From Dyella telluris (GTDB lineage: Bacteria > Pseudomonadota > Gammaproteobacteria > Xanthomonadales > Rhodanobacteraceae), in NCBI RefSeq assembly GCF_014297575.1, contig NZ_CP060412.1:4030001-4094000 (forward strand): 64,000 bases of DNA, given 5' to 3'. A program made the position numbers and the translations under genes. Of the stretch, positions 14,512-55,750 are shown one piece after another. Under the pieces are notes generated by a model that was not told where the DNA came from, did no database searches, and saw nothing but the letters and a program-made list of their open reading frames with translations. Numbering within the stretch: position 1 is the stretch's first letter; the number at the start of each line of letters is the position of its first letter.

Positions 14512-15060
14512 CTCCCTCTCCCCTTGTGGGAGAGGGTTGGGGTGAGGGGTGGGTGCTCGCCTCAGACTTTATTTCCCTCACTGTCATCCCAGCGAAAGCT
14601 GGGATCAAGTGCCTCTGCTCTTGGTCTCCGGTCTCGCGCGTTTCCGCGATCTGGCCGCTTACGCCGCGGAGGCGTTTCGACCTCCTGCCGGAGGCCGAGT
14701 CACTTTTCTTTGCTGGCCCAAAGAAAAGTAACCCAAAGAAATGGCCTTAAAGGCTGGCAGCATGCCGATGGGATAAGCCCGAACGGCTGAGGAACGGTGT
14801 TGCTTGGCAACCTCCGCCTCTACACAGCGGGTACTTCCAAGCGCTTCGCAACGCGCCGAAGCGGAGAGGACTTAACGCGGAGCGTCGTGCAGCTTTGCGG
14901 CACCTCCTTCCTTGCCACTAGGGTGTTCACGTTGAACATGACCTGTCGCTCGTCCTCTCCCGTTCGGGAGAGGACTGGGGTGAGCACTGAGGCAAGCTAG
15001 GAACGCGCTTCACACGGTGCGAGTCCCCCTGTAGGAGCGCACTTTGTGCGCGACCGCAGC
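14512..15060 (+). repeat. Dispersed repeat module R, copy 2, with a truncated REP-like unit
   Basis: Fills most of the 620-base gap between cysK and the HxlR-type gene. It repeats the R module of 9544-10066 in the same orientation: CTCCCTCTCCCC..GGGGTGAGGGG, a CCCAGC-GAAA-GCTGGG hairpin (~14587-14602), CCTCCTGCCGGAGG, CTTTTCTTTG/CAAAGAAAAG, GGGATAAGCCCGA, CTTAACGCGGAGCG and GTCCTCTCCCGTTCGGGAGAGGAC. A GTAGGAGCGCAC/GTGCGCGAC arm starts at 15031, but its partner arm is degenerate and module S is absent. Short reading frames inside are by-products of the repeat. Confidence 0.85.
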
Positions 15061-49577: not shown

Positions 49578-49930
<353 letters not shown>

Positions 49931-52411: not shown

Positions 52412-52828
52412 ATGGAACAGGAAACCAAAGAACTGCGCAAAGCCGGGTTGAAGGTCACCCACCCCCGCATGCGCATTCTGCAGATCTTCGAAGACGAGGA
52501 GGCTCATCACCTCACCGCCGAGGACATCTACAAACGCCTTTTGGCCCACCAGGAAGACATCGGGCTGGCCACCGTTTACCGGGTGCTGACCCAGTTCGAG
52601 GCCGCCGGCATCGTGGTCAAGCACAACTTCGAGGGCGGCCAGGCCGTCTACGAACTGGACCGTGGCAAGCACCATGACCACATGATCGATGTGGACAGCG
52701 GAAAGGTCATTGAGTTCGTCAGCGAGGAGATCGAGCGCCTCCAGCACGAAATTGCGGCCCGCCATGGGTACGTCATCGAAGACCACAGCCTGGTGCTGTA
52801 CGTGCGGCCCAAGAAGGGCCACAAGTAA
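52412..52828 (+). CDS. fur: Ferric uptake regulator
   Basis: A 138-residue Fur: the N-terminal DNA-binding domain (LRKAGLKVTHPRMRILQIFE, LATVYRVLTQFEAAGIV) and the dimer domain with metal ligands HHDHMIDVDSGKVIEF. The CxxC pair of E. coli Fur is replaced by non-cysteine residues (DVDSG), so the structural zinc site is absent or different, as in related Xanthomonads. The ATG at 52412 has GGAG six bases upstream; a GTG at 52400 is less likely. It represses iron-uptake genes when Fe(II) is available. Confidence 0.95.
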   Translation: MEQETKELRKAGLKVTHPRMRILQIFEDEEAHHLTAEDIYKRLLAHQEDIGLATVYRVLTQFEAAGIVVKHNFEGGQAVYELDRGKHHDHMIDVDSGKVIEFVSEEIERLQHEIAARHGYVIEDHSLVLYVRPKKGHK

Positions 52829-52941
52829 GGTCAGGTTCCCGCAGGTACCCCGGGGCCGGTGGCGGAGACGCTGCCGGCCTTTTGGTTTTTTGGGCGGGGG
52901 GAGTTGCGGTGGTGGCCTGGCGGCTGGTGCCGGAAGGCGAA

Positions 52942-53058
52942 AGGCGCTGGATCCCCGCTTTCGCGGGGATGACGATCGGAGGGCCCAAAGGTACGTGGGC
53001 TCGACACGCCGCCTCAGCTTTGTCCGTCATCCCCGCGAAAGCGGGGATCCAGCGCCTT
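52942..53058. repeat. Inverted pair of short interspersed repeats after fur
   Basis: AGGCGCTGGATCCCCGC..GGGGATGAC (52942-52973) is repeated in inverted orientation at 53026-53058, 52 bases apart. Each copy also contains its own CCCCGC-(TTTC or GAAA)-GCGGGG hairpin, the same motif embedded in repeat module R. The pair lies in the 564-base gap between fur and the sensor kinase gene and may end fur transcription. 53059-53136 shows nothing else. Confidence 0.8.
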
Positions 53059-53136
53059 CAGGCGGGCCGGAGCAACAAGCGGGTCGGCCGACAGGCCAGA
53101 AAGCAGGCGAAGCAGGGCAACCCGAAAAGCGCCCAT

Positions 53137-53345
53137 AAAAAAAGCCGCGGGAGGACTCCTGTCCACCCAGCGGCTTATCCGTTATCGAATGGCTCCAGAG
53201 AAAGGCGAGTTGCTCGCGTAGCCTGGTGATGCCATCGACTCCGGCGGAACGGCATCCTGCCGTTCTTCATGTCCACCGTCCCCACGGTTGACATGGCTCA
53301 CCATCTTGCGATGGTGGCTCCCCCACATCGATGGATCCAGCGTAA
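53137..53345 (-). ncRNA. Candidate structured small RNA with GGA-loop hairpins
   Basis: The minus strand of this gap can fold into consecutive hairpins: CACCATC-GCAA-GATGGTG (53299-53316); CATGTC-A-ACCGT-GGGG-ACGGT-G-GACATG (53268-53295); GAACGGC-AGGAT-GCCGTTC (53247-53265); and a terminator GCCGC..GGG..GGAC-AGGA-GTCC..CCC..GCGGC followed by seven Ts (53137-53174). Ten GGA trinucleotides occur in about 205 bases, two of them in apical AGGA loops, as in CsrA/RsmA-sequestering RNAs. The 5' end is a guess; an AT-rich patch (53365-53395) could hold the promoter, or it could be a processed 3' UTR of the kinase mRNA. It is not recognised as tmRNA, 6S, SRP or RNase P RNA. Confidence 0.5.
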
Positions 53346-53392
53346 CGAAGCCTTCACACGTCGGGTATCAGAAAATTTCCTATGTAACGTTC

Positions 53393-54988
53393 CTAAGTGC
53401 GTGCTGCGTCACTAGTTTGCGTGCTGCTACGCAGCAATATCCTTAAGTGAACGCCCTGCGCTTCGGGGCGGACCCTGAACAGGCCGCCCAGGGACGTGAC
53501 CCGGTCCCGCATGCCCTGCATGCCCCGGCCGCCGCGCGGCATGCGGGCGGGCAGGCCGATGCCGTTGTCGCGGATGTCCAGCAAGGCCAGCGCTACGCCT
53601 TGGCGCTCGCCAATGCGCAGGCGCAGCTGGAAGGTGTCGGCGTGGGCGTGTTTCACGGCGTTGGTGGCGCTTTCCTGCACCAGGCGATAGACCACGGTGC
53701 GGGTGTCGTCGTCCAGCAGGCGCGGGTCACCGTGCAGGTCGGTGCGGTAGGCCACGCCGGCGGCGTTGAGCAGGTCGCGGATGGGGCCCTCGTCCAGGGC
53801 GCGAAGCAGGCCGAATTCGTCCAGTACGGCCGGGCGCAGGTCATCCAGCAGGCGGTGCAGGGCGCGGCGCATGTGGCCGAGGATGGCGTTGATCGACACC
53901 CCGATGTCGTCCATGCCGGCCTGGGCCAGGCGGGACTGGGCCAGCTTCAGGTGGGTCTGGATGGCGGTGAGGTTCTGGCCCAGCTCGTCGTGCAGCTCGG
54001 CGGCCATGTGGCGGCGCTGGTTTTCCTCGGTCTGCAGGTTGCCGCGGGCGGCGTCGCGCAGCTGGCGGGCCAGGTGGTCCAGGCGGCGATTCACGGCGGC
54101 CAGGTAGACATTCTGCTCGGCCACGCGCTCGCTGCTGCGGCGCAGGGCATCCGTGGCCGAACCCAGCATGAGCGCGCCGGTGCCCGCCACGGCCAGGAAC
54201 AGCTCACCCGCGGCGCCGGGTGCGCCGTGGCCGGACAGGTGATCCACCAGGGTCATGCCCAGACTGGAAATGAGCATGGAAAGGCTGGCGCCGCGCCAGC
54301 CATGCCGGAAGGCGAAGAACAGCACCGGTGCCAGCGACAGCACGCGAGCGAACTGGGGCTGTGGTGCCTCATGGGAGGACAGCACCAGCAGGATCGCCAG
54401 CGAAGGCAGCAGCACCAGCAGGCCGTCCATCAGCAGGCGGCCGAGGGCGCGCTTGTTCAGCGGTGCGCGCAACATCATCACCAGCAGGGGCACCACCAGC
54501 AGGACGCCGACGTAGTTGCCCAGCAGGTCCTGTCCCAGCGCCTGCATCATCATGTCCGCGCCGGGCGCGGCGTGGATCAGCGCCAGCATCACGGCATCGG
54601 CCGCGGTGGTGGCCGCCACGGTGAAGGCCGCCGACAGCAGCAGGCGGGCGACGTCTTCCGGGTCGCGCAGGCTGGCGTGCAGGTTGGCGCGGCGCATCAG
54701 CCACAGGCAGATGGCCGATACCAGCGGCTCGGGCAGTGCGCCCAGCAGGTAGCCGCGCCAGCCCAGCAGCAGCGGATGGAACGAGGCGATCAGTGCGCTG
54801 GCGGCGAATTCCGCACCGAGCAGCCATGGCCACATACGCCAAGGCGCCAGCAGCAGGGCGCCGAAGCGCAGGCCATAGGGAAGCATCCAGTAGGGTTGTT
54901 CCGTTGGCCACAGCAACAGCCAGAGCAGAAAGTAGCCAACGCCAAAGAGCAGGTCAGAGCCTGGCAGTGCAGAAGATTTCGATCGCAT
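53393..54988 (-). CDS. Membrane sensor histidine kinase (MASE1-like sensor, HisKA_3)
   Basis: A 531-residue kinase. Residues ~10-290 contain about eight transmembrane helices in MASE1-like order (WLLLWPTEQPYWMLPYGLRFGALLLAPWRMWPWLLGAEFAAS at the start). A short coiled coil is followed by the HisKA_3 box RRHMAAELHDELGQNLTAIQTH, with the phospho-acceptor His, and a C-terminal ATPase domain with VQESATNAVKHA (N box), LDIRDNGIGLP and GRGMQGMRDRV. The ligand is unknown. The ATG at 54988 gives a natural N-terminus. It is divergent from a NarL-type response regulator and is presumably its partner. Confidence 0.92.
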   Translation of the reverse strand: MRSKSSALPGSDLLFGVGYFLLWLLLWPTEQPYWMLPYGLRFGALLLAPWRMWPWLLGAEFAASALIASFHPLLLGWRGYLLGALPEPLVSAICLWLMRRANLHASLRDPEDVARLLLSAAFTVAATTAADAVMLALIHAAPGADMMMQALGQDLLGNYVGVLLVVPLLVMMLRAPLNKRALGRLLMDGLLVLLPSLAILLVLSSHEAPQPQFARVLSLAPVLFFAFRHGWRGASLSMLISSLGMTLVDHLSGHGAPGAAGELFLAVAGTGALMLGSATDALRRSSERVAEQNVYLAAVNRRLDHLARQLRDAARGNLQTEENQRRHMAAELHDELGQNLTAIQTHLKLAQSRLAQAGMDDIGVSINAILGHMRRALHRLLDDLRPAVLDEFGLLRALDEGPIRDLLNAAGVAYRTDLHGDPRLLDDDTRTVVYRLVQESATNAVKHAHADTFQLRLRIGERQGVALALLDIRDNGIGLPARMPRGGRGMQGMRDRVTSLGGLFRVRPEAQGVHLRILLRSSTQTSDAART

Positions 54989-55114: not shown

Positions 55115-55750
55115 ATGTACAGCATTGTCCTGGTTGATGACCATGCCATCGTACGAGAGGGGTTCAAGCGGCTGATCGAAATGGAACCGGATCTGGAGGT
55201 CGTTGCGGAGTGCCGCAGCGCTGACGATGCGGTGGAAGCGGTTGGCCTGCGTCGTCCCGATCTCGTGGCACTCGATCTCTCACTGCCCGATGGCAGCGGG
55301 CTACCGTTGATCGAGCATCTGCGCAGCGTTGCCTCGGACACGCGCATCGTGGTGCTGAGCATGCACGACGGCGAACCCTACGTTTCCGAAGCGCTGCGCC
55401 GTGGCGCCAGCGGTTACGTGACCAAGGGCGTAGCACCGGAAGAACTGGTGGCCGGCCTGCGCGCGGTGATGCAGGGCGAGTGCTTCCTGAGTTCCGACCT
55501 GCGCAAGCGCCGCGCCGAACGCCCGAGCGAATCGCGCGACCCCATCCACCGACTCACCGCCCGCGAGCGCGAAGTGTTCCTGCTGCTGGCGGCAGGCCGG
55601 GCGCCAAAGCAGGTGGCCGGCGAGCTGGGTATCGGTCAGAAGACCGTCTACATCCACCGGGCGAGCCTGATGGGCAAGCTGGGGGCGGGCTCGGAACTGG
55701 ATCTCTACCGCATGGCGGCGGAGCGCGGGTTGTTGCCGCGGAAGAACTGA
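55115..55750 (+). CDS. NarL/FixJ-family response regulator
   Basis: A 211-residue regulator: receiver domain with acidic pair DDHAIVREG (D9, D10), phospho-acceptor DLSLPDGSGLPL (~residue 54), LSMHDGEPYVSEALRRGASGYVTKG (Thr/Lys switch), then a LuxR-type helix-turn-helix HRLTAREREVFLLLAAGRAPKQVAGELGIGQKTVYIHRASLMGKLG. Close relatives include UhpA/UvrY-type regulators. The ATG at 55115 gives the family start. It is divergent from the sensor kinase across 126 bases. Confidence 0.93.
   Translation: MYSIVLVDDHAIVREGFKRLIEMEPDLEVVAECRSADDAVEAVGLRRPDLVALDLSLPDGSGLPLIEHLRSVASDTRIVVLSMHDGEPYVSEALRRGASGYVTKGVAPEELVAGLRAVMQGECFLSSDLRKRRAERPSESRDPIHRLTAREREVFLLLAAGRAPKQVAGELGIGQKTVYIHRASLMGKLGAGSELDLYRMAAERGLLPRKN

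Follow-up and report, generated by a model that had tools for sequence, protein, structure and literature searches.

Small RNAs that sequester CsrA or RsmA are usually, though not universally, driven by a response regulator of the GacA type; the activator palindrome in Pseudomonas is TGTAAG-N6-CTTACA, and the LetA site of Legionella is TNAGAAATTTCTNA. RsmX, RsmY and RsmZ together with CsrB and CsrC (RF00166 and RF00195) are organized as chains of hairpins with GGA in their loops, end in an intrinsic terminator with GGA in its own loop, and have a palindromic activator site upstream. The Legionella RsmX/Y/Z RNAs are described as CsrA decoys controlled by the LetA/LetS two-component system (PMC5338858), the preferred target of CsrA is given as A(N)GGA in short hairpins (PMC7366521), and several GGA motifs are reported to be required for the sequestration of RsmA (PMC2375449). 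In the order Xanthomonadales, RsmU of Xanthomonas campestris is an RsmA-sequestering RNA processed from the 3'-UTR of the comEA mRNA and reported in Xanthomonas only, and the same report states that the known CsrA/RsmA decoys have no homologue in any sequenced Xanthomonas genome (PMC7694677). Xanthomonas, Xanthomonadales, Stenotrophomonas and Rhodanobacter are absent from the main text of a prediction study of such RNAs (PMC5568370), and among the titles and abstract openings listed in a literature search none describes an RNA of this kind in Rhodanobacteraceae.

The window, a stretch of 64,000 nucleotides from the genome of Dyella telluris, contains an element that resembles these RNAs. It is a small RNA of about 196 nt (53137..53332, minus strand), defined by covariance-model matches, covariation and its fold, with a predicted start at 53332 and an end in a run of seven T residues. 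It lies about 60 bases past the stop codon of a sensor kinase gene (53393), ahead of fur, and is present in a single copy in its own genome; that it is a real, conserved structured RNA is near certain. The original prediction, of a CsrA/RsmA sponge on this strand, had taken the whole of 53137..53345 as RNA, of which 53137..53332 is retained and the first 13 bases on the minus strand are assigned to the promoter instead, because the predicted transcript start is 53332. The neighboring genes are as originally described: Pfam identifies a MASE1–HisKA_3–HATPase sensor kinase, UhpB-like, directly upstream of the RNA (53393..54988, minus strand; best NCBIfam model UhpB, 181.3 bits, under the cut-off of 408), divergent from it is a NarL/LuxR-type response regulator (55115..55750, plus strand), which scores below the cut-off for a GacA equivalog (126.8 of 280 bits), and the convergent neighbor on the other side is fur (52412..52828, plus strand; NCBIfam equivalog above cut-off).

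The RNA folds on the minus strand as five hairpins, the last of which is the terminator, and the hairpins, the loops and the T7 run lie where the original prediction placed them. The folding energy of 53137-53345 is -100 kcal/mol, compared with a mean of -74.6 kcal/mol for shuffled sequences (z = -5.28; none of 200 shuffles folds as well). Near the 5' end, the stretch GAUGUGGGGGAG (53318..53329, minus strand, as are all elements that follow) is only partly single-stranded in the ensemble. Hairpin 1 (53296..53318) has a covarying stem and a loop without GGA that reads GCAA in the window and differs among relatives, hairpin 2 (53268..53295) has a covarying helix and a GGGG loop closed by a U-A pair, giving the motif UGGGGAC, and hairpin 3, GGCAGGAUGCC (53247..53265), has an AGGA loop with its GGA at 53257-53255. 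A small hairpin, CGAGCAACUCG (53205..53217), is found within a loosely paired central region and is gapped in 11 of the 56 rows of the broader alignment. The terminator hairpin (53142..53176; top GGACAGGAGUCC) covaries and carries an AGGA loop at 53160-53157, and the T7 run (53137..53143) is read from the sequence. Both AGGA loops originally noted are present, as is the GGGG loop followed by A (53283-53279), although that A is predicted to be paired. The terminator is absent from the list produced by a simple terminator scan, although a stem-loop and a T7 run are present in the sequence and the stem covaries; its stem is interrupted, which probably explains the omission.

A blastn search of 61 genomes gave near full-length matches in all 20 genomes of the genus, the window genome included, and in 10 of 17 genomes of the same family outside the genus (L028-L037). 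A covariance model, R1, built from these 30 homologs (alignment A2), gave matches in 145 of the 233 family genomes, one copy in each, with 18 of 26 genera represented; the match in G020 (L094, 21.6 bits) is discounted as chance, leaving 144 genomes and 17 genera. A broader model, R2 (56 sequences), was run on 398 genomes of the order and matched 101, of which 98 belong to the same family as the window genome and the others (G285, G474 and G492; 21.5-23.1 bits) are discounted as chance. Divergent copies behind the kinase that had escaped R1 are picked up by R2 (L116 at 61.3 bits, L117-L120 at 35.9-45.7 bits), as is, weakly, the copy at L309 (21.1 bits). Scanning a GTDB set of one genome per species with the loop pattern yielded 101 stretches, 80 of which are listed, and record titles among the matches listed include Dyella, Luteibacter, Rhodanobacter, Frateuria, Fulvimonas, Oleiagrimonas and Pinirhizobacter. 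The oddly labelled MAG records from Thiobacillaceae (L203) and Eremiobacteraeota (L240) carry real copies by the model and are perhaps misbinned contigs, and a Dermatophilaceae MAG record (L239) has no real copy (8.9 bits by model). The RNA appears to be found in one family only, which the named records among the matches listed indicate to be Rhodanobacteraceae.

The stems covary extensively. In A2, 28 of 54 pairs are changed on both sides, compared with a mean of 8.8 in shuffles and with none of 500 shuffles reaching 28, and 98.4% of cells pair, falling to 32-46% when the partners are slid; A2 was aligned by sequence only, and the structure tested was RNAalifold's own on A2, which favors it on the proportion of cells paired. 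In the 56-row alignment A4, which was fitted to the covariance model and so is biased towards the model structure, 36 of 47 pairs are changed on both sides and 97.2% of cells pair. Related sequences may exceed such shuffles, and we therefore give more weight to how many pair types occur, and to change between genera, than to the shuffle count. In hairpin 3, four of the seven stem pairs are changed on both sides in A2. Covarying stems with GGA loops kept across Dyella, Luteibacter and Rhodanobacter were the pattern that the original prediction had named as support, and both alignments and the loop counts below display it, with the hairpins conserved in 144 of the 233 family genomes.

The original prediction also drew on the abundance of GGA. 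The count of ten in 209 bases is correct, but the expected three to four is too low, as base shuffles average 4.37 and dinucleotide-preserving shuffles 6.25; ten or more are reached by 3 of 2000 base shuffles and by 70 of 2000 dinucleotide-preserving shuffles, and given the average of the latter the raw count alone is only modestly unusual. The location of GGA within hairpin loops and its conservation are a stronger signal. In minimum-energy folds of 61 distinct homologs (the 56 of A4 and five divergent copies), GGA-bearing hairpin loops average 3.02 per homolog, compared with 0.64 in shuffles, with one, two, three, four and five such loops in 1, 2, 54, 3 and 1 homologs, respectively. The RNA thus exposes, in hairpin loops, the several GGA motifs expected of a CsrA-sequestering sRNA and reported as a requirement for sequestration (PMC2375449). 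Among the 56 homologs, the hairpin 3 pattern is present in all, with a mean probability of 0.97 that its GGA is unpaired (above 0.8 in 53), and the terminator-loop pattern is present in 54, with a probability of 1.00 in every one. The hairpin 2 pattern is likewise found in all 56, with a mean of 0.76 because its A closes the loop, and the 5' G-run in 55, with a mean of 0.50. Of the five g13 copies that were fetched, four (L077, L079, L080 and L081) have a mostly rewritten hairpin 3 stem with a loop that reads AGGGA or AAGGA, and the terminator loops of L077-L081 read ACAGGAGU, ACAAGGAGU or ACAUGGAGU, all of them A(N)GGA. Hairpin 3 is without GGA in the divergent L116, L117, L119 and L120 and keeps it in L118; in L309 hairpin 2 reads GGGGC.

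The most constant motif counted is UGGGGAC of hairpin 2, present in 61 of 61 homologs, compared with 56 for the hairpin 3 AGGA in a loose form, 54 for GGGGA or GGGGGA near the 5' end, and 52 for the terminator-loop pattern. This invariance is more than CsrA binding alone demands and counts against a decoy, as does the departure of two of the four conserved G-rich sites from A(N)GGA, with the A of hairpin 2 predicted to be paired. The same counts, and the presence of canonical A(N)GGA in only two loops of the window, would fit an sRNA acting mainly by base pairing, in which the 5' GUGGGGGAG and the hairpin 2 loop GUGGGGAC seed C-rich targets and the AGGA loops are secondary. We consider such a role unlikely as the main one, since the A(N)GGA loops are kept upon changed stem sequences, three GGA loops in 54 of 61 homologs are what a CsrA decoy requires, the G-rich sites likewise end in GGA, and hairpin 3 is at least as constant as the 5' site.

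Rfam reports no match at threshold in the window except for tmRNA (49578-49930, minus strand, 199.5 bits), and no CsrA-binding family in 20 homologs at E values up to 10; an unrelated family matching the RNA, which the original prediction had named as contrary evidence, is not seen at threshold in the window or the 20 homologs. PrrB_RsmZ (RF00166) scores 21.3 bits in the window, under its gathering threshold of 44, and the RsmZ match is unrepeated in the 20 homologs; Burkholderia ncS01 (20.5 of 58 bits) and ncS035 (17.5 of 79 bits), which fall on the RNA in the 20 homologs, are taken as chance. Between fur and the RNA terminator there are two facing copies of a REP-like element, TCATCCCCGCGAAAGCGGGGATC (window 52950-53049), with more copies at 14584 and 19754 that have two mismatches; sub-threshold miRNA-like Rfam matches at 52929-53063 are due to this inverted repeat and not to the RNA.

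The covarying stems and kept GGA loops, with no Rfam match at threshold, support the sponge-like architecture that was first proposed. The Dyella RNA shares with RsmX/RsmY/RsmZ and CsrB/CsrC the chain of GGA-loop hairpins, the terminator with GGA in its loop, and an upstream palindrome, with regulators of the NarL/GacA class encoded both adjacent to it and elsewhere in the genome, but it differs in having no near-threshold Rfam score and in that two of its conserved sites are G-runs followed by A. RsmU is similarly an RsmA-sequestering RNA in the same order as the candidate Dyella decoy, from which the latter is set apart by locus and by the published description, lying between fur and a kinase, with a conserved box of its own and in one family (PMC7694677).

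The promoter box, TAGGAAATTTTCTGATA (53366..53382, minus strand), is palindromic, with the consensus TAGGAAWTTTTCCRATA, and is centered at about -43 from the predicted start. A strict form of the pattern is found in 59 of 61 homologs, its center preceding the RNA by 43 nt in 44 of these and by 39-45 nt in all 59, and a looser palindrome pattern in 61 of 61; when the same loci are tiled in segments of 110 bases, 58 of 3732 segments contain the strict pattern, a background that may include true sites. In the 398 genomes of the order, TAGGAAWYTTTCYRATA has 92 matches, one per genome, all of them on the strand of the RNA and 32-34 nt upstream of it, whereas a reversed control has one match; the exact TAGGAAWYTTTCYRATA is missing from six of the 98 genomes with the RNA (G011, G025, G030, G125, G198 and G200). 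The only exact box match in the window genome is at the RNA promoter, and allowing up to two mismatches adds six sites, no excess over the seven of the reversed control. A general regulator site is not supported, exact matches being confined to the RNA promoter, so that, by sequence, the factor binding the box would have one target. The Dyella box reads TAGGAA-N3-TTCC, as opposed to TGTAAG-N6-CTTACA in Pseudomonas, which has no match at the RNA promoter with up to three mismatches. It resembles the Legionella LetA site, with palindrome spacing one base different, a likeness of the site alone.

The putative -10 hexamer is TACGCT (53339..53344, minus strand), which corresponds to TANNNT in relatives; 60 of 61 homologs have a TANNNT whose end lies 3-11 nt ahead of the model start, a count that comes without a chance rate. 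A simple promoter scan did not find a sigma-70 consensus pair at the RNA promoter, which dependence on an activator would explain. A second, weaker palindrome, TAGGAACGTTACATA (window 53381-53395, minus strand), overlaps the kinase stop codon; it has two mismatches, within chance for the window, and is apparently not conserved across genera. In G020 (L308, 328-582), a perfect palindrome, TAGGAAAAATTCCTA, lies behind the kinase, and hairpins whose loops read CAGGAAG and CAAGGACG come after it. This stretch has no covariance-model match, a fold z of -2.08, and as many GGA loops as 10 of 200 shuffles; it is possibly the same RNA diverged past recognition and as support for a decoy is suggestive only.

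Neighboring genes were inspected at 49 RNA loci (the 30 blastn homologs and 19 more, with L094 left out), and fur is beside the RNA in all 49 and a kinase orthologue in 46. The RNA and the kinase occur together in 142 of 144 RNA genomes, the exceptions being G193 and G194, and the kinase is found at E 1e-40 in 164 of the 233 family genomes. There are 22 kinase genomes without a true R1 match, in two of which (G204 and G215) the kinase is at a contig end. Eight more kinases (49-55% identity) were followed by reading the sequence behind them, and a box is present in G025, G158, G160, G161, G163, G167 and G020 and absent in G165, the contig of G166 ending before the position; there is likewise none behind the kinases of G090 and G097 (39-40% identity). 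This reading was made without G100, G156, G157, G162, G164, G169, G174, G240 and G247. Neither a box nor a model match is found in the fetched sequence behind seven kinase relatives (35-40% identity) checked in g39 and f2 (L311-L317). Because presence and absence follow genera, the co-occurrence of RNA and kinase may reflect few evolutionary events.

Three loci of genus g18, L083 (G194), L084 (G210) and L085 (G211), keep the RNA and the box TGGGAATTTTTCC, and the kinase pair is not alongside. The pair has another location in G210 and G211, and the 420 bases behind the moved kinases (L122 and L123) contain no box; G193 and G194 have no kinase at E 1e-40, and their best regulator match is 35% identical or none. 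We note that in G194 genes that by eye are copper-ATPase-like and MerR-like lie alongside the RNA.

These loci also bear on whether the RNA could lack a promoter of its own and be a stable 3'-UTR of the kinase mRNA. It is on the same strand, about 60 bases past the kinase stop codon with no terminator seen in between, and the 3'-UTR-derived RsmU of Xanthomonas is a precedent (PMC7694677). Against this, the box precedes the start by 39-45 nt in the 59 of 61 homologs measured, with TANNNT in between in 60 of 61, it is confined to the RNA promoter, and it stays with the RNA in L083-L085 rather than with the moved kinases; such an origin is highly improbable. A small protein, from a 40-codon frame that starts at an ATG in hairpin 1 and is open in the window and some close relatives, is rejected, as the frame is unconserved: 13 of 56 rows have a codon other than ATG or GTG at that position, and from genus to genus the frames are shifted or stopped at different points, while the base pairing persists.

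Control by the adjacent regulator is the weakest part of the first interpretation. The window genome also has a GacA orthologue at 4138631 (221 bits against a cut-off of 280), which by eye lies between an integrase-like gene and the apparent 3' end of an RNase E gene (L133, G000:C1:4138631). GacA relatives (46-85% identity) are present in 22 of 23 other genomes asked, RNA-less genomes included; the search gave no better than a 37% relative in G211 and a partial one in G194. This universal presence would make GacA possible as the activator, although it is not in itself positive evidence for GacA. The box was also considered as an autoregulatory site of the adjacent regulator and rejected, there being no full box in 21 of 21 kinase-regulator gaps (the window and 20 loci); the gap of L086 has one half-site. 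Because the RNA and box persist at three loci where the pair is not nearby, and a GacA orthologue exists, the choice of activator stays two-way, and the genomic evidence would give the GacA orthologue and the adjacent NarL-type regulator about equal odds. A more specific version, which we regard as doubtful, would have a CsrA decoy wired to the MASE1/UhpB-type kinase and the NarL-type regulator and not to GacS/GacA, with the RNA promoter as the regulator's sole genomic site, forming a one-switch, one-RNA circuit beside an ordinary GacA, and with UGGGGAC giving a second activity.

On the sequence evidence, the RNA is most probably a CsrA decoy, and a single CsrA gene is found in the window genome, where it was searched for (E 1.3e-25; 91.9 bits against a cut-off of 27). 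In the mechanism that we propose, a NarL/GacA-type response regulator, acting as a dedicated activator, would bind the palindromic box at about -43 and switch on transcription of a stand-alone RNA of about 196 nt. The RNA would present at least two canonical A(N)GGA hairpin loops, those of hairpin 3 and the terminator, as well as two G-rich GGGGA/GGGGGA sites; these four GGA sites could hold about two CsrA dimers, and titration of CsrA by the RNA would free CsrA-repressed mRNAs.

As a family the RNA is new, and as a kind it is ordinary; its promoter site is unusually specific, so that its input can be tested, and covariance models from the Dyella RNA homologs could be the starting point for a new entry among RNA families. 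The presence in seven named genera of a conserved candidate decoy that has a promoter site of its own would be an entry point to CsrA release in the order and, as the box pattern occurs once per genome where present, a clean test of the sensor system that feeds the Csr switch.
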